Assembly: GCA_914767715.1 (NCBI GenBank)
Contig: OU612067.1
Location: 14,575,001 to 14,639,000 of the forward strand
From: Membranipora membranacea
Lineage: Eukaryota; Bryozoa; Gymnolaemata; Cheilostomatida; Membraniporidae
Length of the DNA stretch: 64,000 nucleotides
Direction of reading: 5' to 3'
In this document: positions 1 to 59,744 of the stretch, piece by piece
How positions within the stretch are numbered: position 1 is the first letter of the stretch
Layout: every line of letters starts with the position of its first letter
Program-made: the position numbers and the translations under genes
The notes under the pieces: model-generated
Databases searched by the model: none
The model's input: the letters and a program-made list of their open reading frames with translations, nothing else
What the model was told of the DNA's origin: nothing

Positions 1-3000
1 TACCTGATGATATAGGTATGATAAGTTCACTGACAAAGTTATATGCACACAACTGTGATCTGTCTCAGATACCTGACAGGTGAGTAATTTCTCTGTTCTC
101 AAATTTTGGTGAGTGATGACGGTGATACAATCATCAATAATATTTTTAATTGTGACATCGAATTGTTTTCTATGATAATCAGTTATCAGCGAAATCTGTT
201 TTCTCATTGATAATTTACCTCTAGGTATCTTGATGTTAGTGATATAATTTTTGACTATGCCATTTAATTGTTTTCTGTCAGAAGCGGCTATATCCTCATC
301 TTACCTCACATTGTGTATATTTATATTTCAGTATTTGTTCACTGACAGCACTAGAGGAGTTACATATAAACGGGAACAAGAAGCTAGAAACATTACCTGA
401 TGATATTGGTATGATGAGTGCACTGAAGGTGATAATGGCATGGGACTGTGATCTGTCTCATATACCTGGCAGGTGAGTCATTTCTCTGTTATCAGATTTT
501 GGTGAGTGATGACGGTGATACAATCATTAATAATATTTTTAAGTGTGATATCGAACTGTTTTCTATGATAATCAGTTATCAGCGAAATCCATTTACCCGT
601 TGATAATTTACCTATAGGTATCTTGATATCAGTGATATAATTTATAACTATGTCATTTAATTGTTATCTGTCAGAAGCGGCTACATCCTCACTTTACCTC
701 ACATTGTGTATATTTATATTTCAGTATTTGTTCACTGTCAGCACTAGAGGAGTTACATATAAACGGTAACCAGAAGCTACAAACATTACCTGATGATATA
801 GGTATGATAAGTTCACTGACAAAGTTATATGCATCGGACTGTGATCTGTCTTATATACCTGACAGGTGAGTCATTTCTCTGTTCTCAAATTTTGGTGAGT
901 GATGATGGTGATACAATCATTAATAATATTTTTAAGTGTTGTATCGAATTGTTTTCTAAGATAATCAGTTATCAGCGAAATCTATTTACCCGTTGATAAT
1001 TTACCTATAGGTATCTTGATGTCAGTGATATAATTTATAACTATGCCATTTAATTGTTATCTGTCAGAAGCGGCTATATCCTCATCTTACCTCACATTGC
1101 GTATATTTATATTTCAGTATTTGTTCACTAACAGCACTAGAGGAGTTATCTGTACGGGGTAACCAGAAGCTACAAACATTACCTGATGATATAGGTATGA
1201 TAAGTTCACTGACAAAGTTATATGCATCGGACTGTGATCTGTCTTATATACCTGATAGGTGAGTCATTTCTCTGTTATCAGATTTTGGCGAGTGATGACG
1301 GTGATACAATCATTAATAATATTTTTAAGTGTGATATCGAATTGTTTTCTATGATAATCAGTTATCAGCGAAATCTATTTACCCGTTGATAATTTACCTA
1401 TAGGTATCTTGATGTCAGTGATATAATTTATAACTATGCCATTTAATTGTTATCTGTCAGAAGCGGCTATATCCACATCTTACCTCACATTGTCTATATT
1501 TATATTTCAGTATTTGTTCACTGACAGCACTAGAGGAGTTATATATAAACGGTAACAAGAAGCTACAAACATTACCTGATGATATAGGTATGATGAGTTC
1601 ACTGAAGGCGATAACGGCGTTTGACTGTGATCTGTCTCATATACCTGACAGGTGAGTCATTTCTCTGTTATCAAATTATGGTGAGTGATGACGGTGATAC
1701 AATCATTAATAATATTTTTAAGTGTGATATTGAATTGTTTTCTTTGATAATCAGTTATCAGCGAAATCTATTTTCTCTTCGATAATTTACCTATAGGTAT
1801 CTTGATGTCAGTGATATAATTTATAGCTATGCCATTTAATTGTTATCTGTCAGAAGCGGCTATATCCTCATCTTACCTCACCTTGTCTATATTTATGTTT
1901 CAGTATTTGTTCACTGAAAGCTCTAGAGGAGTTACATATAAACGGTAACAAGATGCTACAAACATTACCTGATGATATAGGTATGCTAAGATCACTGACA
2001 AAGTTATATGTATGGTACTGTGATCTGTCTCATATACCTGACAGGTGAGTCATTTCTCTGTTATCAGATTTTGCTGAGTGATGACGGTGATACAATCGTT
2101 AATAATATTTTTTAGTGTGATATGGAAATGTTTTCTATGATAATCAGTTATCAGCAAAATCTATTTACCCGTTGATAATTTACCTATAGGTATCTTGATG
2201 TCAGTGATATAATTTATAACTATGTCATTTGATTGTTATCTGTCAGAAGCGGCTATATCCTCATCTTACCTCACATTGTGTATATTTATATTTCAGTATT
2301 TGCTCACTGACAGCACTAGAGGAGATACATATAAACGGTAACAAGAAGATACAAGCATTACCTGATGATATAGGTATGATGAGTTCACTGAAGGTGATAA
2401 AGGCATGGGACTGTGATATGTCTCATATACCTGACAGGTGAGTCATTTCTCTGTTATCAGATTTTGGTGAGTGATGACGGTGATACAATCAATCACTAAT
2501 AATATTTTTAAGTTTGATGTCGAATTGTTTTCTATGATCATCAGGTATCAGCGAAATGTATTTACCCGTTGATGATTTACCTATAGGTATCTTGATGTCA
2601 GTGTTATAATTTATAGCTATGCCATTTAATTGTTATCTGTCAGAAGCGGCTATATCCTCATCTTACCTCACATTGTGTATATTTATATTTCAGTATTTGC
2701 TCACTGACAGCACTAGAGGAGATACATATAAACGGTAACAAGAAGATACAAGCATTACCTGATGATATAGGTATGATGAGTTCACTGAAGGTGATAAAGG
2801 CATGGGACTGTGATCTGTCTCATATACCTGACAGGTGAGTCATTTCTCTGTTATCAAATTTTGGTGAGTGATGACGGTGATACAATCAATCATTAATAAT
2901 ATTTTTAAGTGTGATTTCGAATTGTTTTCTATGATAATCAGTTATCAGAGAAATCTTTTTACCCGTTGATAATTTACCTATAGGTATGTTGATATCAGTA

Positions 3001-3231
3001 ATACCATTGTTAACTATGACATCTAATTGTAATCTGTCAGAAGCGGCTATATCCTCATCTTACCTCACATTGTCTATATTTATATTTCAGTGTCTGTTCT
3101 CTGTCAGCACTAGAGGTTATATCTGTAAGAGGTAATAAGATGCTCAAATCATTACCTGATCTTATAGGTAAGGTGAGATCACTGAAGGTGATAAATGCAT
3201 CAGGCTGTGATCTGTCCTATATACCTGAAAG
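1..3231 (+). repeat. 393-bp tandem exon/intron array encoding LRRs
   Basis: Nine LRR exons start at a regular spacing: 332, 725, 1118, 1511, 1904, 2297 are exactly 393 bp apart, then 2694 and 3091 are 397 bp apart because of a 4-bp AATC duplication in the intron. Each unit is a 141-bp exon plus a roughly 252-bp intron, and the introns are nearly as alike as the exons, including the shared acceptor TATATTTCAG and donor GTGAGTCATT. Both 141 and 393 are multiples of three and all introns are phase 2, so units can be gained or lost without breaking frame. The array continues off the left edge. The ninth exon (3091) is more diverged, and exons at 3858, 10002, 10420 and 10870 have unrelated introns, so they are older units. 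Confidence 0.93.
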
Positions 3232-6200
3232 GTGAGTTATTCTTCTGTTATCAGATTATGGTGAGTGATGACAATAATACAACTTTTCATTGCGATATCA
3301 AATTGGTACCTGTGAGAAGCGGCTATATCCTCATCTTACCATTTTACCCCAATGGTCACAGTCATGACTTATACTTAGTTATTAGCCAATTGGAACTCAG
3401 TATGAGTGGTATATAATCATGAGGAAAGAACATGCATCATCAAAAGCCTTCATTAACTGAGGCATGTTTTTGACGCGGCTGATAGACATTGGTGTATTTG
3501 AGAAGCCGCTAAGGGGCCCCTATTTGTTCAAATGCAATGAGAATTTGACCAGGTGTGTAAAAGACTCCAACGTACAACATGGTGTTGCCGATTTGTTTTG
3601 TATGGAACCCTGCTAGGAAACCTTTAATATAACTATCTTATCTCGCGTAGGGAAATTGAACCTTCAGTACACAGCCAGGCCTAAGGTTCATAATTATATT
3701 GAAATATTTTTTTCCCCTAATACTAAATATTTCTTTCCTGTAAGGTAGCTTTATGATATAAATTGAGCTTTGTTAATTTTAATGTCAGTATTGATATATA
3801 TGGCAAGCAGTTATGTGACAGCTATATCGTAATCATACCTCTTTTTTTATATTGCAGTGTCCTTAGTCTGACAGTTCTTGAGGAATTACGTATATCACAA
3901 AATAAGAAGCTAAAAAAACTACCAGCTGATATAGGTATGATGAGGTCACTGAAAATATTGGAAGTCTCGAACTGTCAGCTGTCTCAATTACCAAACAGGT
4001 ATGTTATTCTTATCTGTTTGGTTATGCTTTTTCTTGGGGCGATGATATGTTCTGTTTATCTGATATGATGTCCAGAGTTATTTATCAGGCGTCACCTTGT
4101 CATAGCAGGATGACACATTTCGGAGTTTATTGTGTCATTTCATTGTGTCGCAAAATCAGTAAGAATACACCCTTTATCACTAAAACAGTATTGCATCTTC
4201 AGAATTTATGATGGTTGTGATATTTCATCATGTATTTATTATCACGTAATTAAAAGTTAGTTCTTCGTGATCCTTGTGTGTTGAGCTGAAAGCTTTCAAT
4301 TGATACAATATTGAACACTAAAATTTATTTATGACGTTACTTTAGTGAGATTTCTTTAAGGCTTTATGACAGCTGTACTTTTTCTTACATCATTGTAAAA
4401 CTCACAATCAGACTATGGGAACCAGAGGGACCTTATGAGCGCCATATCTGCCATGAATTAAGGCAGTATGAAAGTTCTAGAATTTATGGGGTAAATATGG
4501 GGTAAATCCAGGGTTTTTCTCCTCTGCAGAAAGCGGAGGCAGAAGAGCAGAGGACGTATGGGTATGAGGCATGCGCAACAAATAAACAGAGCTAACATCA
4601 TAAAATACCTTAATAATCTTGAGATTGGATATGATTTATAAGCTTAGTGGCTCCACTGCACACTTGGCACCTATTGTTGAGGGGCAACTTCAATTTTTTT
4701 TTAAATTTGTAAAATTACCGAAAATATGTCAGAATCTTGAGAGCCTATGAGGTTATGTAACTTTTCGAGCTCTTTAAAATGTTAAAATATGGTGACCCTG
4801 CATTTGTCATGTTGCCTCTCAGTTTCTGATAGTGAAAAATAAATATACAATCAAACAAAAAATAATTAAAGGCCTAGAACATTGATCGCACATTCAATTT
4901 TGTTCTGTTTGCTGTTTTCTTTTTTTTTGTCTTTGATTTGCAGTGTTTTTTTCATTTGCTGTTGTATTTGTTATTTTAATATGGGTTTTTCTATGTATAT
5001 TCGACAGCGATTTGATGCAAACCAATCTGGTCCCGTGGGAATTTATCCTGAATTCTATTTATGTATCAGTTGCCACATCATTTATCATGATCAATTTAAG
5101 TGGATTCTGTACTCCATCCAGGCCATCCAAGGTCAGAGGGGAGGTATAACTTTAGTGTATTGGTTGATATATACAACATGGTAATCATCAAATTCTAACT
5201 AACAGGGTCTCTGTCAACTTAAGAGAAAATAAACTTAAATCTGTTTTCAACAAGCAGAAGTTCTCAAAAACTTGTGCAACTCTGATTTCCAGTGCTTTCA
5301 TAACCTGCTGTTAAACAAGGTCAGCAAATCAACCGCATTCTTTGACTGTTGTTATCATGTCTTAATCACAGGAACACCATTACAAATCCGCTTGGCATGC
5401 TTTTGGTAAATATTTTAAAGTATCAAGCTTTGAGAAGATCAGCGGTCATATACCAATTTTTGCCAGGATCTGATTTATATGTTACACGTGTAGGATGTCA
5501 TGGATTTCTTTAGAACTATACTTTAGGCACAACCACCAAGAATCTTTTCAGGGAACAAGAAGAATCCTTTAATTGACTTTTTCACCAAAGAACACAAAAG
5601 ACAATGGGAACATAATTCCACAAACAGTGTGAACATAACTCCTAATTACATGTGAGTTTTTCAGGTAAAACCAAAATACAACATCAAACTACTGTATAAA
5701 CAATACTCCCACTTAGTTTGATAAAAGATAAAAATGAAACATGAATTACAAACGAACTGTACATGTATGTTATATAAGAGCGTCACATCATATGGTTACG
5801 CGTTTACCTACTCCCACTCGTTTAGCATAGCGAGCATTTTGCCAAACAAGGGACGAGCGAGTGGTTTGGTGAACATGTCGGCAACGTTGGATTCGGAGGG
5901 ACAGAAGGTTGTCTGAATGATACCTTTCTCTATCGCTTCTCTGCAGTAATGGTATTTGATATCCATGTGGCGTGTACGTTTAGAGCTAGTGTTATTCTGA
6001 GCGATTGAGATTGCCGACTGATTGTCAACATGAGTGAGAATAGCGGGGTTGTCGAGACTTCTCATGTCATTGTAGAGTTGCTTCAACCAAGCAGCTTGCT
6101 TGGCGACATCATATAGAGCGATATACTCCGCCTCAGCAGTAGAGACAGCTACGACACTCTGTGATTTGCTGGACCAGTAGATCGGTGCACTACCATGCAT

Positions 6201-9200
6201 AAACACAGAGCCTGAGGTGGATGTTCGATTATCAGAATTGTCAGCCCATGACGAGTCAGAATAAGCTACTAACTTACCATCAGACTTGACCATCTTGATA
6301 CCGCGATCTGAGGTACCTTTCAGATATCGGAGTACACGTTTCGCTCCAGACATGTGAGTCTCAGTTGGAGACGAGTTGAAGCGGGACAGAACTCCCACTG
6401 CATGACTTATGTCAGGGCGAGTAGCTGATGCAGCATAGAGAAGGCTGCCGATAATAGACTGATAGGTAGATTGGTCGGCGGGTTTACTCCCGTCTTCTTT
6501 CTCAAACTTGACATCGGTTGCCATAGGAGTTGAGACTGGATTAGCGTTGTTCATACCGAACTTGTGAAGAATCTGGTTGACATAGTGTTTCTGATTGAGT
6601 GTGATTGAGCTCTGTTCTTGCTCTACAGAGATACCCAGACAGAAATGAAGGGGCCCGAGATCTTTCATATTGTACTGAGCTGCGAGAGCCTGCTTTATGT
6701 CAAGCATCTGATCTTCAGTATCTGTCATAAACACTAAATCGTCGACGTACACTGCAATCATAGCCTTAGAGCCAGATAACTCACGCACATAGACACACTG
6801 ATCGGCATTGGAGTTCACAAAGTTCAACGATTTGAGAAAGTTATCTAACACAATGTTCCAGCATCGTGGTGACTGTTTGAGGCCATATAGTGATTTACTG
6901 AGTTTGCATACCAGATTTTCATCTCCTGGCTGTACAAAACCTGACGGCTGATCCATATATATGTCCTCATCGAGGCTGCCATTCAAGAATGCGGTCACAA
7001 CATCCATTTGATGAATGCGCATGCCTCTATCCACGGCCTCAGCTAAGACTGCTCTCAATGATGGAAAGCTAACAACAGGTGAATATGTCTCATCGTAATC
7101 CACACCTGCTTTCTGAGCATAGCCCTTGGCTACTAATCGAGCTTTGTAGCGATCTACATTACCATCAGGGGTGTACTTGGCCTTAAAGACCCATTTACAG
7201 CCTACACTTTTACGACCTGGAGGTAATTCTACTAGTGACCACGTCTCATTATTCATAAGAGCTTCATACTCACGCTCTGCAGCTGCGATCCACTCAGATC
7301 TCTGTGGGCTGTTCTCGACTTGATCAATGGTCTGAGGCTCAATGATCTCACTAGCGTGACAGGCAACGTGATCAGCTGTAGAGGCAGCCTGGTAGCGGTC
7401 AGGCTCACGGCGTTGGCGTTCTGATCGTCTTAGAGGGTGACTGTCGTCGGCGGTGTCGAGATCAACGATGAGTTTTGAGCTGGAGTTGTCTGCACACGGC
7501 GAAGGGCGGACAACCGGTACATGGCACGACCCATCACTGGTAACACCACAAACTGCTTCGTCAAATACAACATCACGACGAACTACAACAGACTTAGTTT
7601 TGATATCATATAGACGATAGCCTTTGGACCTGGTACTGTATCCAACGTGTAACATTGATTCAGCCTTATCATCTAGTTTCCCACGTAATTGATCAGGAAT
7701 ATGAGAGTATGCTAGACATCCAAATACTCGGAGATTACTTATGTCAGGTTTGCTGCCATGCCAAAGCTCATATGGTGTGGTCGGTTCTGAGTGAGCACGT
7801 GTGGGCACACGATTTCTAACATAGGCAGCGGTGGCTATGGCTTCAGCCCACAAGAACTTGGGTAGCCTAGACTCAATAATCATAGCACGGGCAGCTTCAC
7901 ATACCGTTCTATTATATCTCTCCGCCACACCATTCTGTTCAGCAGAATAACGTACAGTGATCTCGTGACGTATACCACATGACTTCAGATGAGTTTCAAA
8001 CTCGTTGGATATATACCCGCCACCTCCGTCTGAACGCAGCGTTCCTATCGATTGACCTGTCTGATTTGATACAAGAGCAGAAAGCTCTAGAAACTTAGAA
8101 AACACTTCAGATTTATCATGCAAAAAATAAACATGTGTATATCTAGTAAAATCATCAACAAATGTGACAAAATACCTACTACCACCTAACGACGTCGTTC
8201 TCATGGGCCCGCACACATCGGTGTGTACGAGCTCAAGTACTCTAGTAGACTTGATCTCTGACCTGGCCTTGAATGGCATACAACTCATCTTACCCTTCAC
8301 ACACGGTTCACACAGTCCGACTTTAGTCTCAAATAGTTCGGCTCCATTCACAAGCCCTTCACGACACATACGTTTTATAGCGGCTTCATGTACATGTGCT
8401 AAACGACTGTGCCACAGAGAATCAGATTTAGCTACAGCGGCATTTGCGTGGTCGGACGACTCCAGATCTAGGTAATATAACTTATCTACCAATGTGCCCC
8501 GAGCACATAACTGATTACACTTGTTTCTAACCCAGCAGCGACTATGACCAAACTGCACCGTCATATTTCTGGATGTTACTGCCCTCACGGAGAACAGGTT
8601 AGAACTGAGATCAGGCACATACAACACATCATACAGCGTAGATTTACGAGCTACACTACGGTTAGCACTGACTGATACCATGACACGGCCTACACCTAAG
8701 GCATTTACAGTTTTACCGTCAGCGATCGCTACTTTCTCAGGCTTCTCAAACTCCTGGTAGTCAGTAAACAGTGACCGATAGGGTGTCATGTGTTTAGTAG
8801 CACCTGAATCTATGAGCCAGCGTTGACTCGTACTATTCTCACCATCATCATTGTTGATAGCAAAAGCAGACTCTGTATCATCAGCTACATGTTTGGCTTT
8901 GTGCTGAGATCTATTGTGATTGTTACTGTTAGAGTGCTGCTTGCGGTTTGGACATTGTCTCTGCATATGTCCAACCTTCCCACAATCCCAGCACTTGGGT
9001 TTGGGGCGACCAGCCTTCATAGCGGTGTCAGGAGGATTAGCATTGTTACTCCTGGCACCAGAGACGCCGACCGAAGCCGGTAATACTTGTTCCCTGCGTT
9101 TTTGTTCCTCATTAAGAAGTGCTTGTTGAACGAATTCGAGCGTAGGTGGGTCTTGCTGAGTCTCGAGAGCGGTCACGACTGTTGAATAACTATCAGGAAG

Positions 9201-12200
9201 CGAACCTAACAGAGTAACCACCTGATCTTCCTCGCTAATAGGAGCCCTAATCGCCGCTAAACGATCAGTCAAGTCTTTCATGAACTTGAGGTGTTGCTCT
9301 ATAGTTGAACTCTCACTCATCATGGAACGGAAGTAGCGCTTCTTGAGGAACATCTTATTTGCCAGAGTGTCTCTCTCAAAATGTTTCGATAAAGCCTCCC
9401 AGGCAGCTTTTGGAGAGTCACACTCAGTGATGAGATACAGCAACTCATCACTCACTGCAAGCACTATGAGGGAAAGTGCTTTATTAAGTTTCTTGGTGTA
9501 ATTTGCTTTGGCTGGCTCTTCAGTGGGCTGTGTAACTGATCCATCCACATAGCCATATAGTTCTCTAGCTATCAGAAAATGCTTAAACTTAAACTTCCAT
9601 GTAGTGTAGTTAGAAGCAGTCAGTCTATCTATACTCCACTTCTCTTCCATTTTGATTGCTGGAAGTTAAGCTATATTTCTGTCACAGTGGGATAGAGATA
9701 CTGGGCCCATAACCTGTAGGATGTCATGGATTTCTTTAGAACTATACTTTAGGCACAACCACCAAGAATCTTTTCAGGGAACAAGAAGAATCCTTTAATT
9801 GACTTTTTCACAAAAGACAATGGGAACATAATTCCACAAACAGTGTGAACATAACTCCTAATTACATGTGAGTTTTTCAGGTAAAACCAAAATACAACAT
9901 CAAACTACTGTATAAACAATAACACGAGGTGTACATCTTTCCTACTGGATCTTGAATCTTTAAGCTATCGCTTCATCACCATATCTCTATTTATATTACA
10001 GTATCTGCTCACTGTCAGCACTAGAGGAATTAGCTGTAGAATGTAATAAGAAACTCAAGACATTACCTGATGATATTGGAATGCTCACATCTCTTAAGAA
10101 GATAGATGCCAGTTCGTGCAGTTTGACTCATTTACCTGGCAGGTGAGTGACAGGATGGTGATTAAGATGATGGAGACATCATGGTCTTTTGATGTCGTGG
10201 GATGGTGATTGGCGTTGCATTGGTTATGCAATGGTGATGAAGCTGGTTATGTGATGCTAATGTGATCTGTTACGGTGGTGACGGCGATGTCATGTTGATC
10301 GCGTTGGAATATGATGCTGATGATGAGGATGTACCAATGTTACAACGCTGTGGCAATCACATAATATCATTACAGTTATTGCCTCATTTTCCCTAACAAT
10401 ATACTTGTGTACTTCACAGTGTCGTCACATTGGCAGCTCTAGAGGAGTTAGCTGTACAAAGTAACAAAAAGCTAAAAGCATTACCAAATTATATTGGCAT
10501 GATGAGATCGCTGAAGAAATTAGATTTTAGCTCTTGTAGTATGACTCAAATACCTGCCAGGTTAGTAACATTACAAATCATAGCTCATTTTTAATTCTGG
10601 TTGTATGTCAGGCAGTGGTGTACACCAGTGTACAAATGGCATGTATGATTGCAGGCATGTGAATGAGTGATTGTTGTATATAAGCTAAATAAAAGCTTCG
10701 CCTTTCTTCCGTGTACTAATACAACAAGGACAAAAGCAGTCAATATTTGGCCTACAGGGCATCTGGCATTGATAACTTATATATGCTTTGCCAGCAAGTA
10801 AAGTCAGCCTTGACAGTGTGCTTATGTTTTATCATACATCAAATTTAAAACTTAACACAATCATTACAGTATATGCTCACTGGCAGCTCTAGAAGAGTTA
10901 TCCGCGTACGGAAATAAGAAGTTAAAAGTATTATCTGATGACCTAGGCAAGATGAAATCACTGAGAAAGTTGGATATGGGTTCTTGCAATTTAACTCATC
11001 TACATACCAGGTAAATACTTCCACCTTGTATTTTCACATTTACTCTAAGGTGAACGACTTAATTTTATACTCATGTTAACTAGGGCGAGTTTGCACTAAA
11101 ATTGGCTGCTAGCTTTAATTTAATTTAATTCTTCTGACACATTGGCTAAATTATCAACATGTTTCTCAAAGTCAGCCAGAGATTGATATCAATCAAATAT
11201 GAAAACACAGCCTGAAAACCATAGTCATTATTATCTGAATGGGGCTACTTTAAACTTATTGACAAAAGATGTGTGCATGGGGGACCAAAAAAATTACTGA
11301 TGATAACAAGAGTATGTTGACAAAAGCTTGTGATTTGTATGAAGTTTAGAAAGTAGTGTCAAGCTAGATGGGAAACCTAGATATATTATTCCATTTGCCT
11401 ATATGATCAAAGAGTCTCTGCTTTACTAGCTCCAGCATATAGTCAGTGGCGCTCCAACTGGAACAAAAAACATCTGGACGATTGACAAGGCTCCCTGTTT
11501 TGTGTTGGTTCTCATGTAATTTTAACTGTAAGCTGATCTCTCATCTCTTGCAGCATTGGAGAACTGACTAATCTTATCACCCTGGATGTCGAGCACAATC
11601 GCAAGTTAACCACCATACCTGAGAGTCTTTTCCAACTTGGCGCATTAGAAGAAGTCAAATGTAAAGGCTGTCACGCGTTAACATTTCCACCTCTGGCTGT
11701 CTGCAAACTAGGAGTTGAAGCAGTGAGAAAATATTTCTCCGCCCTTCGCGTGGATGAACCAAGTAATCAACTGCTAATCCCAGTCACTGTAATTGGACAG
11801 AGTAGGGCTGGTAAAACAAGTCTTGTCCGTAGTGTACAACAAAATGAGAGAGTGTTGACAAAACGAGATTCTGATGAAAGCGCGTTGGACGCGGCCACCA
11901 AGGTTTTCCAAGTATCTGAAGCTGAGGTGGACAAGGCCACAAAACTTGTCTTTACTGACTTTGGAGGACAAACAATATACCAGTTTTCTTACCAGCTAAC
12001 CTTTAAGACTCAGTGTGTCCCACTGCTGGTGATAGACATTGCTGAGTTTGACAGGTTAGTTGGAAAGAATGGGTTGGAGATGGCCTGCAAAGAGCTGTGT
12101 ATACAATGGCTGTCACAGCTCTACATTTCATCTCCTCAACTCAAACGGCCAGTAGTAGTCCTCACTCACCGTGACAAAGTTAGTGATGAGTGTTTTGAAC

Positions 12201-15200
12201 GCAGAAGAGAGCAACTGATAGAGGTCACTGAAGTGTTACGTCAGCACATCATCGAAGCTGAAAGAAGTGTGTCTCCAACATCAAATCCTGTTTCCACAAT
12301 GACAAGCTTTACTGATCCCTCAGAAACTTTTATAGGAAAAAGTAACATTCTTGTGTTATCAGACACATCAGATCAGTTTGACATTGATGCTGTGAAAAAC
12401 GCCATTGCCCTCACTGGTTCAGAACTAGTAACAAAAATACCAGGCAACTGGTACAAAATATTCATCAGAATCACTCAGCAAAGTGATAAACTGTTCATCA
12501 CCCTGTCAGAGGTAGATAAGGAATTTCCCGATGATAAAGACCATGTAGCCCTCGAGTATCTCCATGAGTCAGGACGTATAATGTGGTTTGGGAAAATAGA
12601 AAAACTCTCAAGTTACATTTTCCACCGAGCGGAAGTTCTGACAGGCCTCATAGAGGTGCTATATAGTCACACGATAGATGATACCTGGGATCAACGGCTA
12701 CATCACTTTTCGACGTTCACCTGTAATGGAAGAACCTTCACCAAAAGTAAATATGCTGACATGATTGACAATTTCAATGAGACTGGAGTAATGGAGGGTC
12801 CTTTGCTTGTTAATCTGCTAGAGAAAGAAACAATACTCCCAACTGACATCTCATTGGAAATCTTGAAGTTGTTTCATCTTATTCATTCATGCGGACCATC
12901 TGATGAGCTAAGAAATGAGAAGTACATCATACCCTACTTCGCAAAGCAGAGGATAGAGGCACCAGAAGTGTATGATCACCTGATCCCGCTAAGGGTAGAT
13001 CTGTTCCTACGCGGTCTCCCTCTACCGAACTACGTATACTCCCTCATCACAGCAGCTTACCTAGACATGAACTCAGATCCCTACAACATTCCTCAGGCTG
13101 GTATGAATGGTGCAACAGTAACAAAGGGGAACAAAAGAGTGAAATACCTCCTACATCAAGCTAAGGAGCAGCGTGTTTCATTAATCGCTCTCACCCCTCT
13201 GAGAAGAATATGTGAAGCTTGGCAAGATCAACTAAGTTCACTGCGACAGATCATCTCAGAACTGAAATCTGTTTGGAAAGGCGTTCGGTATGAGACTGGC
13301 TTTGTTTGCTCCCATTGCTTACTTGCAAATAAATCAACCCCAACTACAGTTGCTGATCCTGATTGGTTCAATCTAGAATATGCAGCCAGTGATGTAAATA
13401 TCTGCTATACGGGAACCGAAATAACTGTTTGCGGGAAAGACCTCAGTGCTATAGAGAGTGAATCTGTTCCGTACCCACTGATGAATCCATGTAAGTAAAA
13501 CAACACACAACAAAATGGTGTAACAAAAAATGAGCATCTACCAGCAGTGGAAAATACCAAACATTCTATGAGTATTGTTAGAGTTTCCTCCCCATATACA
13601 TTGTTTACCAAAGTAGGCAGTTGGTATCAAGAGGTGAGATAATATTTTTTCATGTTTTCGCAGGTACTGAAATATCTGACTCTGGATACAATGTTCTCCA
13701 AGATTACATCTCAGCCCTCAGAATTTTGTCAGGCAAGAACTTTATCACCATATCACCTTGTTCTCCAAAAAATTAATATCAGAACTACCTTTTGCTTCTA
13801 GCTTGGGGAGGACTCTTCGATTGCAACTAAAAACCCTAACTATGAAGCACATAATTGTGTAAGAAATCTCTCTGATAGAATAGACAGTTTTCTGAGCTCT
13901 GATTTAGGCCTCAATTCTGAGTTGTCCTCCTCTTCAGTTTGGTATTTTTAACCCACGCCGCATAGGAAAAACGTGCTGAAAAGAGGGTTATCTTGAAAAC
14001 CGCTTATAAAAGGATAAAAATTGTTTTTGATTCTGAATCTGCAACATTAAAAACTCATATGGACATAGTTTGGGAAATAATTTCAGTAATTGGATAGTCA
14101 ATTACAGCATTTTCTGCCTGTTTTGCGGACAATTTGGCAGAATTTTTCATGAATTTCGTCACATAAATTAAGATTTATCAACATTCAAGCCTCCAATGAT
14201 TTGGAAACCCTGTCTCACAGGATTTTCAGTGGAGCAGACTCAGAATCAAAAATCATTTTCATCCTATCATAAGCGGTTTTCAAGATAGCCTTCTTTTAAC
14301 AGGTTTTTCCTATGCGGCGTGGGTTAAAAGTACCAAACAACTCCGAATTGAGGCATAAATAAGAGCTCAGAAAACTGTTTATTAGAATGTAGAGACCTAA
14401 TAAGAACGACATTGTAAATCTGTTTCACTGAATCTCACAATTCAATCACAGCATTTTGTGGGAGCTGGGGAAAATCGTTTGACAGTTACACATTATTTTA
14501 AAGCTTGCAACTGAGACATATCTTTCCTAATGTGTTCACAGATAAGTCACAGACGCTAAAGGAGCTGATAGAGAAACATCAACTAGAGGCGAATGACATC
14601 AAGCTGCTGTTCAATCACAGTGATCAATACATCATACCTTATCAGCAATCTCATGTGAAGAGATGTGGATTAGTGCTGTTCAACTCTGAGAAAAGGGACG
14701 GGGCCAGAGAAGAAGCTGATACAATGCAACAAAGTCTTGCCAAATCTGGATTTTCGTCTAAGTCCATGGAATGGAAGATGGACTATGACATGTTTGATAA
14801 GCTCAAATCTGAGATCAGCAGGTTTACTGATGGATTGTCACTGCTCGTCGTCTCCATCATGTCTCATGGTCAAGCAGGAATACTGACCGGGAATCACGAC
14901 TGCAAAATACCTATTACTGATATTCTGCAGGAGCTGAGAGCTATTCTCCCTGAACATGTGCCTTTGGTAAGTTGACTGGACTTGTTCCCGTAGTCTTAAT
15001 GACAAAGTTTACCTACATTTTTTTGTTCAAGATTCTAAATTGATGACACAGACAAAGATTAAATATGGAGCACAAAAAAAGAAAGAATTCCATGTAGCAA
15101 AATCTAAGAATTGAAATTTGGTCGGAGGGGTCTTAAATATTCGGTCGATTTTGCTTTTCAGATTCTTCTGATTCAGGCCTGTCAACCGTATCGTCCAGCT

Positions 15201-15572
15201 GCTAAGCATAAACAATATGACGCTGGTGCCGTAGATCCTTCCAAGAAACCTTACATCAAGCTAGAAAGGCCACATACCCTGCTACTGATGTCATCAGTTG
15301 TTGGAGGGATGGCTGTCAGAGGAGCGTTCACATCTGCCATTGCTAGACAGTTTGCTAATGCTGATGGTAAAACAAATATCAATGATATGGTCACCAGTGC
15401 TATAATCGACATGAAGAAGAACGAAACAGACGGGCACAATCAGTCTCCAGAGTCACGAAATACTCTTCAGAAAAGTCTAGTGCTACCACCAGGTGTAGTA
15501 AGCACAGATCTGCCTCAAAGTCAAGAGAGACTTTCTAAAGAGAGCCTCATGAGGAAGCTTGGTGTCCTGTAG
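1..15572 (+). CDS. LRR-Roc-COR-caspase fusion gene (Roco family), 5' end outside window
   Basis: Partial multi-exon gene; its start lies upstream. LRR exons: 1-79 (partial), 332-472, 725-865, 1118-1258, 1511-1651, 1904-2044, 2297-2437, 2694-2834, 3091-3231, 3858-3998, 10002-10142, 10420-10560, 10870-11010. Each full one is 141 bp, phase 2, about two LRRs (LxxL, NxxL, LPDDIG signatures). The next exon 11554-13490 adds the last LRRs and the Roc-COR module; 13664-13732, 14542-14966 and 15162-15572 add a linker and a caspase-like domain, stop TAG at 15570. Phases are compatible throughout: 2, then 1, 1 and 0. The intron 13733-14541 needs a GC donor (CAG/GCAAGA) and a TTCACAG acceptor. Roco proteins are GTPase scaffolds; caspases are death or inflammatory proteases. 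A receptor-like role, LRR sensing to GTPase to protease, is inference. The alternative is two adjacent genes, Roco and caspase, but no start codon, promoter or poly(A) signal was seen between them. Confidence 0.78.
3999..5483 (+). other. Intron sequence of the Roco gene, nothing recognised
   Basis: Left part of the long intron that carries the copia element. I see no LRR exon, coding exon or clear transposon here; short ORFs at 4.9-5.2 kb are T-rich and not protein-like. Confidence 0.6.
5489..5705 (-). repeat. 3' LTR of the copia element (217 bp)
   Basis: Near-identical partner of 9715-9921, 10 bp longer. On the minus strand it is preceded directly by the purine tract AAGTGGGAG. Confidence 0.93.
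5706..5716 (-). other. Polypurine tract of the copia element
   Basis: Minus-strand AAGTGGGAG abuts the 3' LTR, the standard position and composition for the plus-strand primer of a copia element. Confidence 0.75.
5808..9650 (-). CDS. Copia Gag-Pol polyprotein, 1280 aa, intact
   Basis: Single uninterrupted ORF starting at an ATG just inside the 5' LTR and primer site. Order on the protein: Gag (UBN2-like start, WKFKFKHFLIARELYGYVDG), CCHC knuckle CWDCGKVGHMQRQC, aspartic protease DSGATKHMT, GAG-pre-integrase zinc motif (HSRLAHVHE to CEPCVKGK), integrase core (HTDVCGPM, then LRSDGGGGYIS, then EQNGVAERYNR), reverse transcriptase with YVDDLVFM, and RNase H with AYSDSSWADN and STAEAEYIAL. The order PR-IN-RT-RH defines the copia superfamily (gypsy has IN last). 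All catalytic residues I looked for are present. The lack of any stop or frameshift agrees with the near-identical LTRs. Confidence 0.97.
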   Translation of the reverse strand: MEEKWSIDRLTASNYTTWKFKFKHFLIARELYGYVDGSVTQPTEEPAKANYTKKLNKALSLIVLAVSDELLYLITECDSPKAAWEALSKHFERDTLANKMFLKKRYFRSMMSESSTIEQHLKFMKDLTDRLAAIRAPISEEDQVVTLLGSLPDSYSTVVTALETQQDPPTLEFVQQALLNEEQKRREQVLPASVGVSGARSNNANPPDTAMKAGRPKPKCWDCGKVGHMQRQCPNRKQHSNSNNHNRSQHKAKHVADDTESAFAINNDDGENSTSQRWLIDSGATKHMTPYRSLFTDYQEFEKPEKVAIADGKTVNALGVGRVMVSVSANRSVARKSTLYDVLYVPDLSSNLFSVRAVTSRNMTVQFGHSRCWVRNKCNQLCARGTLVDKLYYLDLESSDHANAAVAKSDSLWHSRLAHVHEAAIKRMCREGLVNGAELFETKVGLCEPCVKGKMSCMPFKARSEIKSTRVLELVHTDVCGPMRTTSLGGSRYFVTFVDDFTRYTHVYFLHDKSEVFSKFLELSALVSNQTGQSIGTLRSDGGGGYISNEFETHLKSCGIRHEITVRYSAEQNGVAERYNRTVCEAARAMIIESRLPKFLWAEAIATAAYVRNRVPTRAHSEPTTPYELWHGSKPDISNLRVFGCLAYSHIPDQLRGKLDDKAESMLHVGYSTRSKGYRLYDIKTKSVVVRRDVVFDEAVCGVTSDGSCHVPVVRPSPCADNSSSKLIVDLDTADDSHPLRRSERQRREPDRYQAASTADHVACHASEIIEPQTIDQVENSPQRSEWIAAAEREYEALMNNETWSLVELPPGRKSVGCKWVFKAKYTPDGNVDRYKARLVAKGYAQKAGVDYDETYSPVVSFPSLRAVLAEAVDRGMRIHQMDVVTAFLNGSLDEDIYMDQPSGFVQPGDENLVCKLSKSLYGLKQSPRCWNIVLDNFLKSLNFVNSNADQCVYVRELSGSKAMIAVYVDDLVFMTDTEDQMLDIKQALAAQYNMKDLGPLHFCLGISVEQEQSSITLNQKHYVNQILHKFGMNNANPVSTPMATDVKFEKEDGSKPADQSTYQSIIGSLLYAASATRPDISHAVGVLSRFNSSPTETHMSGAKRVLRYLKGTSDRGIKMVKSDGKLVAYSDSSWADNSDNRTSTSGSVFMHGSAPIYWSSKSQSVVAVSTAEAEYIALYDVAKQAAWLKQLYNDMRSLDNPAILTHVDNQSAISIAQNNTSSKRTRHMDIKYHYCREAIEKGIIQTTFCPSESNVADMFTKPLARPLFGKMLAMLNEWE
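9699..9714 (-). other. Primer-binding site, half-tRNA iMet type
   Basis: On the minus strand, directly after the 5' LTR, the sequence is GGTTATGGGCCCAG. It is complementary to the anticodon stem-loop of initiator tRNA-Met (CTGGGCCCATAACC). Drosophila copia primes from an internal fragment of tRNA-iMet in the same way, rather than from the tRNA 3' end. Confidence 0.8.
9715..9921 (-). repeat. 5' LTR of the copia element (207 bp)
   Basis: Read on the minus strand it begins TATTGTTTATACAG and ends CATCCTACA. It matches 5489-5705 along its length except that it lacks a 10-bp stretch (ACCAAAGAAC-like) present in the other LTR. Confidence 0.93.
11554..13490 (+). CDS. Long exon: terminal LRRs plus Roc GTPase and COR domain
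   Basis: One 1937-bp exon, part of the fusion gene. It opens with the last LRRs (SIGELTNL, TIPESLF), then a linker that reaches the Roc domain. The P-loop is GQSRAGKTSLV near 11800, switch II is DFGGQ near 11960, and the base-recognition motif is LTHRDK near 12165 (THxD, as is usual in Roc instead of NKxD). The COR region follows, with an LHESGRIMWF segment near 12565 typical of the COR start. After COR comes a Cys pair, CSHC, near 13310. Roc-COR modules act as dimerising GTPases. All nucleotide-binding motifs look intact, so it is probably active. No kinase domain follows, which separates it from LRRK proteins. The exon ends CCAT/GTAAGT, phase 1. Confidence 0.9.
13882..14382. mobile_element. 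MITE, ~500 bp with long terminal inverted repeats
   Basis: Starts ACAGTTTTCTGAGCTCT and ends AGAGCTCAGAAAACTGT. The inverted arms extend roughly 130 bp each (13882-14020 against 14250-14382), including an AACCCACGCCGCATAGG block mirrored by CCTATGCGGCGTGGGTT. No transposase ORF. It sits in the intron between the Roc-COR part and the caspase part. A 93-bp member of the same family is at 43160-43252. Confidence 0.88.
14542..15572 (+). CDS. Caspase-like protease domain (C-terminal part of the fusion)
   Basis: Two exons, 14542-14966 and 15162-15572, joined phase 0. The p20-like part has RCGLVLFNSEKRDGAREEAD, corresponding to the caspase strand and the S1-pocket Arg loop, then VSIMSHG with the catalytic His at about 14860, and LLIQACQPY with the catalytic Cys at about 15180. 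Canonical caspases read QACRG or QACQG here; QACQP is unusual. The p10-like part follows after only about 25 residues: LLLMSSVVGG, then AVRGAFTSAIARQF with an Arg where caspases have the WRN loop. The linker contains Asp residues that could be cleaved. No CARD or DED is seen in front; the prodomain would be the Roco part. The protein ends about 70 residues after the p10 core, in a polar tail. Confidence 0.85.
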
Positions 15573-15578
15573 GCTTCT

Positions 15579-15584
15579 AATAAA
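15579..15584 (+). terminator. Poly(A) signal AATAAA after the caspase stop
   Basis: AATAAA lies 6 bp after the TAG stop of the fusion gene. It is the first such signal after the Roc-COR exon outside coding sequence that I noticed, which fits a single transcript ending here. Confidence 0.6.
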
Positions 15585-36829: not shown

Positions 36830-39300
36830 TATAATTAATAATAACATACATACACACATTCATATCAATCAAACAAGAGTGATTACTCTACTCCTACTCT
36901 ACTGGTTGCTGCTACTTACTTGCTACTTGCTGTGTAGTCGCTAACTTCTGTTGAAGGTTTCAGCAACATGGCATAATCGTCAGTCCATAATCGTTCCAGT
37001 CGTCAACATGTGCCAGTCAGGAGTACCGCCGATGTCTTAACCTGCCAGAGGGGGGCCGACCAGGAGGGAACTCGATGGTGGGAGGGCATTCCACAGCTTC
37101 GCTGAACTGATGAAGAAGCTGTTTAGATGGGCCTTAGTCCGACAGTGAGGTGTCAAGTACTGCTGACTGTGTCTTCGGGTTTGTACAGTTGATGGGGGCT
37201 GGATTGGAATGTAGTCACAGATGTTGGTTGCGACTTCGCCAAAGTGCATGGCCCTGAACATCCCTATCCGTCGATTTACTCTCCTGGATTGGAGCTCTTC
37301 CCATCCCATGTCTTCCAGTAGCTTGGTGGTGCTGGTAACATGGTCTGTTCTTGGTATGTTTTTAGTGATCCGTGCTGCTCTTCTCTGGACGGACTCAAGC
37401 TGGGTGGACTGGGTTTTGGTGATAGCCGCATCCCAAACTGTACATGAGTACTCTAGGATCGGTCTAGCTAGTTGTTTGTAAGCCTTTTCTCGCAGATAGG
37501 GTAGGCTTGGTGGAATTGTTCGCCTGATATACCCAAGTCTGCTAGAGGCTTTCCCAGTGATGAATGCTGTGTTCTCGTTCCAGCGTAAGTTTGATTGAAG
37601 TTTAACCCCTAGGTATTTCACGGATGAAACCTTGCACATCTCAGTGTTGTGGAGAGTGTAGGAGTTGTTTGAGGTGTTCTTCAGTTTTCGGGTGAACTTC
37701 AGGTGCTCGCATTTGCTAGGGTTGAATTCCATGCTCCATGCTGCTTCCCAAAGTTCAAGTTTCCTGAGGTCTTCTTGGAGAATGTCATAGTTGTCAGAGG
37801 TGTTGTAGATAACTGTGTCATCTGCAAACAACCGGATTTCAGATTTGATGTCGTTCAGCATGTCATTGATGTAGATTAAGAATAGGATGGGGCCAATCAC
37901 AGACCCTTGGGGCACTCCTGAGGTGACAGGTTGCGCTGAAGATGGATAACCATCAACAACAACAACCTGGGAGCGTTGGGCCAGGAAGTCTAGTGTCCAG
38001 TTCGTGATCTGGCTGTTAGCACCAATGTTGACAAGCTTCTTTATGAGGTGAGAGTGGTCTACCTTGTCAAAAGCCTTACTGAAGTCGAGAAAGCAAGCAT
38101 CAACTTCTTTATCGTCGTCGAGGAGTTGTGATATATCTGAGGTCAGCTCGATGAGTTGGCTTTCACAGCTCCTGCGACTCCGGAAGCCATGTTGACGGGA
38201 GGTGAGTTTGTTGTTGCTCTCTATGTACCTAGTTAGATTACTGGTAACGATGTGTTCTAGGATCTTGCTAGACACACATGTGAGGCTAATGGGTCGGTAG
38301 TTACAGGGCTGGTATCTGTCACCCTTCTTAAAAACTGGGCACACTCTAGCCATCTTCCAGTCCTCTGGGACACAGGCAGAGTCCAGGGAGATCTGGTATA
38401 TGTGTGTGAGAGCGGGGGCGATGACTTTAGCCATCATCTTCATGAGCCGAGGGGACAGGTCATCAGGTCCGGTAGCTTTGTGTGGGTTTAGTTTCATTAG
38501 TTGAGATAGCACCCCTTTCTCATCAACGGTGATGGTTGGCATTTCACTGGCATGGTGACTTCTTGGGGTGGGCTGTGAAGTGTGTGGCTCAGAGAACACA
38601 GACTGAAAGTATGTGTTGAGAGCTTCAGCTTTCTCCTTTGGTGAGGTGAGGAGACGAGATCCTACACGTAGTGTACCAATGCCAGCAGCTTCTGATCTTT
38701 TGTGCTTGACATATTTCCAAAATCTCTTGTTGGGGTCCCCATCACCGTCTGTGTCAGTGAGTATGTTTTCGACGTATTTGTTGTGCTCTTGTCTCAGTTC
38801 TCTTTGACATTCAGCTTTTAGTTGTCTGAATCGTAGTTCAACATCTGCTTTCCCATGTTTCTTACTCTTTTGATGGAGCCGATTCCTCTTTTGCATCTTC
38901 TTGTCAAGGGTAGAGCTGATCCATGGCTGAGAAGGGCGTGTGCTACTTCTCCTGGTGGGGATGAACTTCCTTGCTCCCTCTAATAGTGTACTTCTGAAGG
39001 TACACCATAGGGAGTTAACATCACTATAGCTTTGGGTTATCTTCTCCATCAGCGGTTGTAGGTGGTCTGCAAGTCCTTCCCAGTCTGCACGTTTGTACAG
39101 CCAGATCGTTCTTGCGGCTTCTCTTCTGCGGTTAACCTTAAGTGATATTTCCGTGAAGGGGATGTGATGGTCGCCTATACCGGGTAGTACTTTGCTTCTG
39201 TTCACTCTGTCAGGGATGTTGGTCATTGTAAGGTCTAGCGTGTTCTCTAGTGCTGAACTGAAGGATTGACTGGACTCGCTCATCAAGGCCCTTAGGCTTA
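36830..39300 (-). mobile_element. 5'-truncated non-LTR retrotransposon (LINE)
   Basis: Carries one long ORF (next entry). The 5' end stops inside the endonuclease domain near 39300, typical of incomplete reverse transcription. On the minus strand the 3' side runs through about 200 bp of untranslated sequence into an AT-rich simple tract near 36830, which may be the tail. No clear target duplication could be assigned by eye. Confidence 0.85.
37037..39286 (-). CDS. LINE ORF2: end of endonuclease plus reverse transcriptase, Jockey/CR1-like
   Basis: 749 codons open, with no internal stop. It begins in the last segment of an APE-type endonuclease (TLDLTMTNIPDRV, then GDHHIPF, where the conserved SDH/GDH motif ends the fold). 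The reverse transcriptase follows: GPDDLSPRLM, NYRPISLTC, DFSKAFDKVDH, SGVPQGSVIGPILFLIYIND and the catalytic FADDT. The thumb and C-terminal region contains RPILEYSCTVWD and FFISSAKLWNALP, as in CR1/Jockey-type elements. The missing N-terminus (most of the endonuclease and ORF1) makes it non-autonomous. The start given is only the first usable codon after the truncation. Confidence 0.93.
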   Translation of the reverse strand: MMSESSQSFSSALENTLDLTMTNIPDRVNRSKVLPGIGDHHIPFTEISLKVNRRREAARTIWLYKRADWEGLADHLQPLMEKITQSYSDVNSLWCTFRSTLLEGARKFIPTRRSSTRPSQPWISSTLDKKMQKRNRLHQKSKKHGKADVELRFRQLKAECQRELRQEHNKYVENILTDTDGDGDPNKRFWKYVKHKRSEAAGIGTLRVGSRLLTSPKEKAEALNTYFQSVFSEPHTSQPTPRSHHASEMPTITVDEKGVLSQLMKLNPHKATGPDDLSPRLMKMMAKVIAPALTHIYQISLDSACVPEDWKMARVCPVFKKGDRYQPCNYRPISLTCVSSKILEHIVTSNLTRYIESNNKLTSRQHGFRSRRSCESQLIELTSDISQLLDDDKEVDACFLDFSKAFDKVDHSHLIKKLVNIGANSQITNWTLDFLAQRSQVVVVDGYPSSAQPVTSGVPQGSVIGPILFLIYINDMLNDIKSEIRLFADDTVIYNTSDNYDILQEDLRKLELWEAAWSMEFNPSKCEHLKFTRKLKNTSNNSYTLHNTEMCKVSSVKYLGVKLQSNLRWNENTAFITGKASSRLGYIRRTIPPSLPYLREKAYKQLARPILEYSCTVWDAAITKTQSTQLESVQRRAARITKNIPRTDHVTSTTKLLEDMGWEELQSRRVNRRIGMFRAMHFGEVATNICDYIPIQPPSTVQTRRHSQQYLTPHCRTKAHLNSFFISSAKLWNALPPSSSLLVGPPLAG

Positions 39301-40923
39301 GTTAGTGACTAGCTAGTTGAAGTCAAATGTACTATGAACAAGAATTATGATGTCTACTGCTGGCGTTTGCTTATTAATCATTCAAAATAATCCTTTGCTT
39401 TGTCTTCTTTCCAAGCTTGTCCTGTCAATTAAACATTTCTTTCTCACAAAATTCTATTTCGACATATGACCTTGACATAGACATCATCTCAATCTAATCG
39501 AATACTGATAGTTTTGTATACCCGTCTCATATTATGAAAATGTAGCATCTCAGTCTCTTCACCAAAGAACTTCGTAGGGTTGTGCTATCTTTTCTTAATC
39601 CAACTGTCGGACTGACAACTCCTGAGCCTATGGAAATGTTGTTGATGAAGCAGGGAGTTTTGGACAATCTCCCTGATGGTAGGAACTGGGAACTTTCTAG
39701 TTAGAATGTGTATAACTTGCCAATAATTTGGAAAAAGGGTGAGAGGCGGTACGCGATACAACTAGCTATTATCAGAACTGTACACAGCATTTAGCAGGTA
39801 CCTGTCATTGTTAAGAGAACACAACCAGTGTAGACTGGTTAGAAAAAAAAACCATGACACATACGCATATCAGATTTTGTTCAAAGTTTATTAAAGTCAG
39901 CAACGAATGTGAACAAACACTTGGAGGTTAGGCTGTAAAATATTTGGAAAAAAACAGGACTTTTCTTCCAAATCTACACTATAACTGTCAACTTGAAACT
40001 GGCACCAAACGTCAACAAACAATTTGAAAACATTTACTCACATGAGAAAAAGTTAGCTCCTACTTACAACACAATTTTTGCATTGCATTACTCTAAATTA
40101 TATTATATTGTGAACACTGATATATATATATTCGTATCAGTGCGATTGTAAACGTCAATTATTATTCTCAGGTTCGTCATGGGTTGTCATAATATGCACC
40201 TTGTGTAAATCTAAGACAACACTTGCAAGAAGCTGTCCCAATCTGACAATATATCAGTCAGGCTTTCAAACTCTTGTCATGAATGGCTCAGACAAAAAAA
40301 GTTTTTGGTTATAAAAGTGAAAGTCCCTAAACTGCGTAACAAAAGTAAGTGGTCTATTTCGTTAAAAAATTTGCAATTCAAGAACATCGCACTTGCAAAG
40401 AATAGATAATTGTTAGGAGCCATTTATATATTCAACATGGCCGAGTGCGGGAAGATTTTTAAATAGTAAGCTATTTACAATATTATGATCTTTGACTCTT
40501 TGGTACATCATCCATGTACAATACCAGTTACATGTATATACATAAAAAAGTTATGACTAACTACACTATAACTGATTGAGTGCATAAGTCCTTTCTGTTT
40601 CTGGTTGTTCATCAATTGTCCGACATGATATGTCTGTAGGTAATAATTTCTTCATTTCGCTGTCGTGAAGTTTTAACCTGCTGTTACGAGACATTTTTGG
40701 AGGAGGTAGTATTTTTATATTAGGCTGTAACATAGAGAAAAGCAATCCTCAGTGATATTTACAGGTGACGGTGAGCTGTTGGGAGGACAGCTCAGAATAA
40801 TAAACTTATCGCACGATACAAATCAGGGAGGGTGGGATATACCACCCTCCCACGGTGTTCAATAATTAAGACAAACAGGACATAGCAAAATCCTACAGAA
40901 AAAATGTTTTCTTTTATCTTTAT
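39301..40923. other. Intergenic region between the LINE and the CACHD1 3' end
   Basis: AT-rich, no coding exon recognised. On the minus strand this includes the likely 3' untranslated region of the CACHD1-like gene. Confidence 0.5.
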
Positions 40924-58976: not shown

Positions 58977-59744
58977 CTACATTAATAGAGAGGCCAGCTC
59001 CATGCGTCGTGGTTGCAGCCTAGTGAATGTATCATAGACCTGATCAATATCTATTGCAAGGTCGCAGTGGATGTTGATCAGAGCCAGAGAGTCGAGCCTT
59101 TCTGGCATCTGAGTTCTGCGTAGGTAGGTGTTGAGCCTCCGGAGAGTGCTAAAGGAGCGCTCACACTCGCATGTAGTTACTGGCAATGTGGCTGCGATCT
59201 GTAAGAGGGTATTTATATTAGGATATATATCAGGGTCGGCCTGGTGCAGAGCATTTGTGACATTACTCGGACCTACCTGGGACCGCATCTCCCACCTTTG
59301 GTATTCATTGGTGATGAATACAGGTGATTGGAGGTCCTCCACATAGAGCTCAGTCAGGTCTCTTAGCTCCTGACTGGTAAGACTTCCCTCAACCAGTTTC
59401 AGCAGAGAGGCTGCAGTTTCTGACATTCCTATCAACATACAATACCAAATAAATAAATCATTACGCAAGTTTGATAGGTATGTCAGTGTGAGAAATACAT
59501 GCACTAGCTGGTTTATCAGTATGTTGGTCAGTAAAGTCGGGAATAACTCACGAGTGAACTGGCTGTCTAACTCCGAGAGAAGGTGGTCCAGGAAGGGAGT
59601 GTACACATTGATCTGATAATAAGTTAGGAGTGAGGTACTAGGGGTGTTATTCCGGTTAGCCATCCGCCCGCAAATCCTCGGTACTGTGGGGGAAACCCCT
59701 GCCATCTCAGAAAGACCTATCGCCATTTCATACCAGCTTGTCAA
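58977..59744 (-). pseudogene. hAT-superfamily transposase, C-terminal part with an intron
   Basis: The C-terminal hAT dimerisation domain is clear: ATLPVTTCECERSFSTLRRL, then a helix with LDSLALINIHCD. The N-terminal side (VPRICGRM, then YYQINVYTPFLDHLLSELDS) is typical of hAT-like '52-kDa repressor'/ZMYM-type proteins found in many invertebrates. The frame is open from 59744 to 58977, but 59429-59551 has GTGAGT and ATAG borders and a non-conserved, hydrophobic translation, so I read it as an intron between 59552-59744 and 58977-59428 (FTR joins MSETAASLL). Another acceptor (TATATCAG) just upstream of 59744 suggests earlier exons. DNA-binding finger and N-terminal catalytic region were not found. 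It is a truncated transposase or part of a domesticated gene. Confidence 0.7.

Follow-up and report, generated by a model that had tools for sequence, protein, structure and literature searches.

NLRs and the inflammasome or apoptosome combine a leucine-rich repeat (LRR) sensor and a nucleotide switch with a caspase that is recruited and activated by proximity. In bacteria, LRR-AP-GTPase(Roc)-COR proteins carry at least 24 C-terminal effectors, among which a caspase is named, and a single bacterium has 11 paralogues of such proteins, as far as the available portion of the source goes (PMC8195603). For animals, the available text on the actiniarian NG1 gives LRRs, Roc/Miro/Ras, a low-scoring COR and TIR_2 (PMC5094078), and that on Aplysia gives LRR, TIR, Roc and COR proteins as well as a death domain in a MyD88-like protein (PMC9334734). 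At least 17 Roco proteins with CARD, death, TIR and other domains are reported for Trichoplax in the part of the paper at hand (PMC4104024). A figure legend on NLRX of the sponge Dysidea avara lists caspase and COR among NLR architectures (PMC12909245).

Here we describe a gene on chromosome 3 of the bryozoan Membranipora membranacea, lying in a window of 64,000 nucleotides (the whole stretch of DNA that was analysed). In the mitochondrial cox1 of the assembly, TGA is read as Trp, and AGA/AGG stand at positions where Ser is usual, a code that argues against a cnidarian and against most sponges. We consider it probable that the gene is one of a large family of bryozoan intracellular receptors, each a single chain of the order LRR-Roc-COR-caspase, in which a ligand would control the proximity of caspase domains and thereby the killing of the cell.

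Gene model of the window copy

The LRR exons, an intact Roc-COR exon and a complete C14 caspase in two exons all lie on the plus strand with matching splice phases, as a first-pass annotation of the window had read them (Table 1). That annotation placed the gene at 11554..15572; these positions are indeed the start of exon D and the end of the stop codon, but the gene extends further 5'. According to tblastn in the adjoining 30 kb, the LRR exons begin about 5.8 kb upstream of the window, and at least 23 of them precede the Roc exon, most spaced about 393 bp. Those in the window, from position 1 to 11010, are 141 bp long and separated by phase-2 introns (ag/T ... AG/gt). The joined exons give an open protein of 1087 aa, which is a partial model of the window copy lacking the gene start.

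A small exon between COR and caspase, exon E, was absent from the earlier model. Its donor at 13732 is GC (TCAG/gcaaga) in the window copy, as it is in the neighbours L032 and L033, and GT in all other copies in which exon E was aligned.

A copia-type LTR retrotransposon lies antisense at 5486-9921 of the window, in the intron between the LRR exons at 3858-3998 and 10002-10142; its gag-pol frame is open (ORF 5808-9665, minus strand, a stop-to-stop length of 1285 aa), and the repeats at its two ends are 98-100% identical, which marks it as a recent insertion. The COR-caspase intron holds three nested inverted-repeat pairs at 13879-14383, with arms of 47-75 nt that are 84-91% complementary, perhaps a small inverted-repeat mobile element. 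On the minus strand, we also found a reverse transcriptase ORF (RVT_1, 37037-39301) and an ORF that contains the dimerisation region of a hAT transposase (58977-59789).

Table 1. Features of the window copy, in window coordinates.
Feature	Position	Strand	Basis or remark
LRR exon, 3' part	1..79	+	begins upstream of window
LRR exon	332..472	+	141 bp, phase 2
LRR exon	725..865	+	
LRR exon	1118..1258	+	
LRR exon	1511..1651	+	
LRR exon	1904..2044	+	
LRR exon	2297..2437	+	
LRR exon	2694..2834	+	
LRR exon	3091..3231	+	
LRR exon	3858..3998	+	
LRR exon A	10002..10142	+	
LRR exon B	10420..10560	+	
LRR exon C	10870..11010	+	
Exon D: last LRRs, Roc GTPase, COR	11554..13490	+	Pfam, predicted fold
Roc domain	11783..12055	+	Pfam match, exon D residues 77-167
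P-loop GQSRAGKTS	11795-11821	+	
Putative recombination breakpoint (approximate), switch versus effector module	13300..13350		identity drop versus C3:14676325
Exon E, small linker exon	13664..13732	+	GC donor
Exon F: linker and caspase p20 part	14542..14966	+	
Arg codon, exon F	14694-14696	+	S1 position
His codon, exon F	14865-14867	+	
Exon G: p10 part	15162..15572	+	stop TAG
Catalytic Cys codon, exon G	15180-15182	+	QACQ
Linker Asp codon, exon G	15219-15221	+	Ala next
Arg codon, exon G	15318-15320	+	S1 position

Linkage of Roc-COR and caspase exons across the genome

We searched the genome (339,339,785 bases in 18 contigs) with two Roc-COR queries. Exon D scored 68 exons out of 379 candidates and a chromosome 1 copy scored 67 out of 724; the merged census holds at least 110 Roc-COR loci on five chromosomes, many of them in tandem arrays. 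Counts of Roc-COR and caspase are lower bounds, only the best candidates having been scored. On the caspase side we used 145 Pfam matches and 151 matches to the window's own caspase query, of which 150 were counted. A caspase match was found within 6 kb downstream and on the same strand for 105 of the 110 Roc-COR exons (57 with the Pfam list on its own, 49 with the window-caspase list on its own, 105 with either), while none of the 110 has a match on that strand in the 6 kb upstream, or one within 6 kb on the other strand. When the Roc positions were shifted by -40, -20, +20 and +40 kb, caspase matches fell to 5, 1, 2 and 7 of 110, respectively. The linkage between Roc-COR and caspase is more than chance.

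Checks on smaller sets of loci agree with this. Three of the eight best Pfam caspase loci, taken with short flanks, have a COR end just upstream, and a near-full Roc-COR exon lies upstream in 19 of 20 chromosome 1 loci picked for their caspase match. Caspase exons are present in 12 of 13 loci picked for Roc-COR; the remaining one, L040, showed none by tblastn in 2.4 kb, and is among the five of 110 Roc-COR loci that have no caspase match within 6 kb. Locus L016, the exception among the 20 chromosome 1 loci, has a caspase match with no Roc-COR in 10 kb. These exceptions weigh against the proposed architecture. Eighty-eight of the 145 Pfam caspase matches (on C9, C8, C10, C5, C11 and others) are unpaired with a scored Roc-COR exon, and may belong to Roc-COR copies outside the scored set, to other fusions or to ordinary caspases.

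The window copy sits between copies that are 99% and 93% identical to it and, judged by these matches, the window gene is one member of a very large multigene family. Two protein-database searches gave no caspase-bearing relative at E<=0.01 among 2754 and 2741 candidates, which weighs against our reading.

Order and strand conserved in so many loci argue against an LRR-Roc-COR gene and an adjacent downstream caspase gene that were duplicated together as a block, an arrangement that we regard as improbable. The exon structure also speaks against two genes. We compared the window with 12 caspase-bearing paralogues, whose exons are 46-98% identical to the window's. Intron phases at the COR donor, at the acceptor and donor of exon F and at the acceptor of exon G agree in all 13 copies; the COR donor splits the same codon and exons F and G are joined at the same place throughout, and the exon F acceptor is one codon further upstream in L035, L041 and L042. 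Exon E was aligned in phase in 12 of the 13, L036 giving no alignment, although outside the window and its 99% copy this alignment is mostly weak (42-64% over about 22 residues).

The first-pass annotation had named a separate promoter and start codon for the caspase exons as something that would refute a single gene. Upstream of exon F, the open frame lacks an ATG in all 13 copies, and in seven of them, including the window, the first Met encoded by exon F lies beyond the point at which the first caspase strand begins (residue 43). In the other six, an internal Met precedes that strand, at residue 6 (L039, L043), 35 (L036) or 39 (L035, L041, L042), which favours two genes and makes the start-codon argument strict for the window and six others only. 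Two genes would also suit the break in identity close to the module border, described below, and the poly(A)-like hexamers. The AATAAA at 15579, read earlier as a single signal closing the gene, is present, but the window and 10 of the 12 paralogues have such hexamers between COR and caspase as well; the signal is therefore uninformative on transcript ends, and we rejected such hexamers as evidence for the end of the gene. A single transcript for the window gene is what we infer from the gene models, which again leaves some room for two genes.

Taken at the level of gene models, sensor, switch and caspase in one chain are well supported: the earlier reading of a single sensor-switch-executioner chain is upheld to that extent by the linkage, the intron phases and the lack of an ATG ahead of the caspase exon. 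Left unspliced, exon D runs into a stop within 5 codons in 12 of the 13 copies, so that intron retention could yield a receptor without the protease.

Roc-COR switch, caspase effector and module exchange

The first-pass annotation had proposed a Pfam check of the joined protein. In the 1087-aa protein, Roc scores 30.5 bits against a cut-off of 27, Peptidase_C14 scores 43.7 bits against 21.4 (profile 15-232 of 233) and several LRR families also exceed their Pfam cut-offs, but COR-A stays below its own in the window copy (12.4 bits against 35.3). Across the 14 members of the Roc-COR set A1, Pfam finds Roc at E<=0.01 in all 14, COR-A in 11 and COR-B in one, the window member having neither COR family. 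The predicted model of exon D (mean pLDDT 72.6, pTM 0.59) has as its top Foldseek rows the LRR-Roc-COR and Roc-COR structures of Chlorobium (E 6e-14 and 2e-12, respectively), followed by LRRK2. Its 12 best rows are all Roc-COR, COR or LRRK2 chains, with a poor superposition over the whole chain (query-normalised TM-scores of 0.19-0.30 for these first 12 rows). The Pfam matches of the relatives and the predicted fold thus support a COR domain directly after Roc. The P-loop and the DxGG motif are intact in exon D, and the motifs are found in 19 of the 20 chromosome 1 loci.

No NACHT or NB-ARC is among the 16 Pfam families listed for the 1087-aa part at E<=10 and, as the switch is a Roc GTPase, this part of the protein does not class as an NLR. 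Pfam reported no CARD or DED in the same part. Relatives of exon D at 42-57% identity (P0001-P0013) were found on contigs below 10 kb, and P0014-P0018 are distant matches. By tblastn, no A1 relative was found in prokaryote contigs among 249 pattern matches, and the viral contigs scanned with A1 gave no confirmed relative.

The effector was examined in 13 caspase sequences (the window and the 12 paralogues), nine of which form the set A2. Peptidase_C14 is found by Pfam in all nine A2 members, and the best PDB match of the A2 profile is caspase-8 (E 2.6e-8). We rejected an identity as CHAT or metacaspase, since the best matches of this profile are caspase-8 chains, with a metacaspase reaching E 0.28. 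Taken by itself, the caspase sequence of the window gave nothing significant in the PDB, its best rows being carbamoyl phosphate synthetase at E 0.03 and caspases from E 0.06. In 13 of 13 copies, the aligned positions retain the catalytic His, the catalytic Cys and the S1 residues Arg, Gln and Arg, and in the HMMER alignments the Arg residues stand opposite Arg of caspases. From caspase structure, we take these Arg, Gln and Arg positions to be the S1 residues that bind Asp at P1. The His motif is SHG or THG in the copies and THA in L041. On chromosome 1, the copies have another type of caspase that is more divergent, its motifs SHG and QACAGS being present in 20 of 20 loci. The inter-subunit linker differs in length among copies, and an Asp-Ala found in 12 of the 13 copies (it is missing in L036) is suggestive of Asp-specific autoprocessing.

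Two further features of the effector region were seen. The caspase exon of L035 (C3:21935500-21938100) continues into a hydrophobic C-terminal tail, which by eye looks like a membrane anchor. Within 13664-14665, a conserved stretch of about 60 residues (LQDYIS..LKELIEKH..DQYIIP) separates COR from the caspase fold; it looks helical by eye and is possibly a small linker or signalling domain.

The caspase frames are open in all 13 copies, and the caspase dN/dS is 0.15-0.48 in the 12 comparisons with the window and 0.24 over all pairs of the 13. For Roc-COR, eight of the 19 chromosome 1 loci with this exon were taken together with the window, and dN/dS is 0.12-0.52 in the 25 unsaturated pairs of 36, the 11 saturated ones including all eight with the window. 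These values below 1, the open frames with catalytic and S1 residues, and the SHG and QAC of all 20 chromosome 1 loci make it very improbable that the family is mostly decaying and carries along a dead caspase. Decay would agree with a stop in two of the 68 Roc-COR rows of the exon D search and in 27 of the 67 rows of the search with the chromosome 1 copy (20 on chromosome 3, seven on C1 and C10), as well as with L022, which is split across two frames; among the 20 chromosome 3 rows is the exon of the window itself, which is open and which the match overruns.

When the window copy is compared with the copy at C3:14676325 in bins of 100 bases, identity is 96-100% between about 11100 and 13299, intron included, with the exception of bins 11800-11999 (0.81 and 0.93). 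Identity goes from 1.00 in bin 13200-13299 to 0.81 in 13300-13399 and 0.73 in 13400-13499, and further downstream the bins of the intron are at 0.43-0.71 and most of those in caspase exons at 0.66-0.88. Two chromosome 1 copies, L027 and L029, show the same pattern, with 95-99.9% identity to other copies in Roc-COR and 56-75% downstream; at the thresholds used, 10 of 171 chromosome 1 pairs are alike in Roc-COR and diverged downstream, and none show the reverse. From these identities, switch and effector behave as modules that appear to have been swapped between copies. For the LRR exons, dN/dS is 0.90 over 20 of the 23 exons and reaches 1.5 in one hand-chosen site group, values that do not demonstrate diversifying selection on the LRRs.

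Proposed mechanism and comparison with known systems

Roco proteins dimerise through COR, and it is by dimerisation that initiator caspases become active. A COR dimer with a C-terminal caspase would therefore be a natural device for proximity activation, with the LRRs as its gate. In the mechanism that we propose, the long, exon-amplified LRR array would sense the ligand, other copies presumably carrying LRR arrays as well; the Roc GTPase with its COR dimerisation module would be the switch and the C-terminal caspase the effector. Ligand binding would change the nucleotide state of Roc and the COR dimer, and two caspase domains would be brought together. Their proximity would activate them, upon which they would cut at the conserved Asp-Ala of the linker and go on to cleave substrates in the cell, which would be killed or inflamed. 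The likely task would be the detection of microbes; alternatively, the receptors may recognise tissue from foreign colonies.

A role in immunity or allorecognition would fit the tandem expansion, the amplification of LRR exons and the exchange of effectors. The family could instead serve developmental or housekeeping signalling and have no part in non-self recognition, which we think unlikely. Roco proteins do act outside immunity, the available text naming Tornado1 in leaf patterning and Roco proteins of Dictyostelium in chemotaxis and division (PMC4104024), and the immune role proposed here is drawn from sequence. However, at least 110 Roc-COR exons spread over five chromosomes, many in tandem, together with amplified LRR exons in the window gene and apparently swapped effector modules, are like receptor families in conflict.

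Given the COR-dimer and caspase logic outlined above, one partial NACHT match in the genome (60 of 167 positions, in an exon-by-exon search that is a weak test) and one short gasdermin match (66 of 240 positions; 28.2 bits, the cut-off being 25), the family may be read as an NLR-like receptor system. Gasdermin was considered as a substrate of the caspase and set aside, the single match being barely above the cut-off. It is conceivable, though doubtful, that more than 100 one-chain LRR-Roc-COR-caspase proteins have replaced NLRs and inflammasomes in this animal as the main intracellular non-self system, maybe serving colony fusion or rejection too. Such a receptor set would diversify through amplification of LRR exons and through caspase modules swapped between switch modules.

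If the one-chain receptor is real, an animal has sensor, switch and executioner in one polypeptide. Until now this design has been described for bacteria, where it is a prediction; the animal would have expanded it to the scale that NLRs reach elsewhere, in a genome whose NACHT search gave that one partial match. Adaptor-free caspase activation in animals would become testable, as would the coupling of a Roc-COR switch to its effector, a matter that bears on LRRK2. The family would also point to genes for non-self or colony recognition in bryozoans.

The nearest likeness is to the bacterial LRR-Roc-COR-effector proteins described by Kaur and colleagues. As far as the available part of that description goes, a single chain in both runs from N-terminal LRRs through a Roc-type GTPase and COR to a C-terminal effector, here at the level of gene models. 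Unlike the bacterial form, the Membranipora family is animal, has introns, comprises 105 linked Roc-COR/caspase loci, and has an effector profile closest to caspase-8 among solved structures. NG1 and the Aplysia proteins likewise join animal LRRs and Roc-COR to an immune signalling domain but, in the text at hand, this is a TIR (or, in the Aplysia MyD88-like protein, a death domain) in place of a caspase, and the genes are few. The Trichoplax proteins resemble ours in joining Roco switches to death-pathway domains in an early animal; their domains would recruit caspases, and the available text and legend name no caspase (PMC4104024). The Dysidea avara NLRX architectures differ in being NACHT-centred, a comparison that covers the domain names given in the legend. 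By analogy, the Membranipora design would work like an NLR, with LRR sensor, nucleotide switch and caspase proximity, but with a Roc-COR GTPase instead of a NACHT ATPase and with the protease in the same chain.

The first-pass annotation was aware of no described animal protein with this domain order. Among the open-licence papers searched in full text (the top of larger result sets), no animal LRR-Roc-COR-caspase is described, but a bacterial LRR-Roc-COR with a C-terminal caspase has been published, according to the available portion of the source (PMC8195603). What is apparently new is an animal variant of a kind known from bacteria, on a surprising scale.
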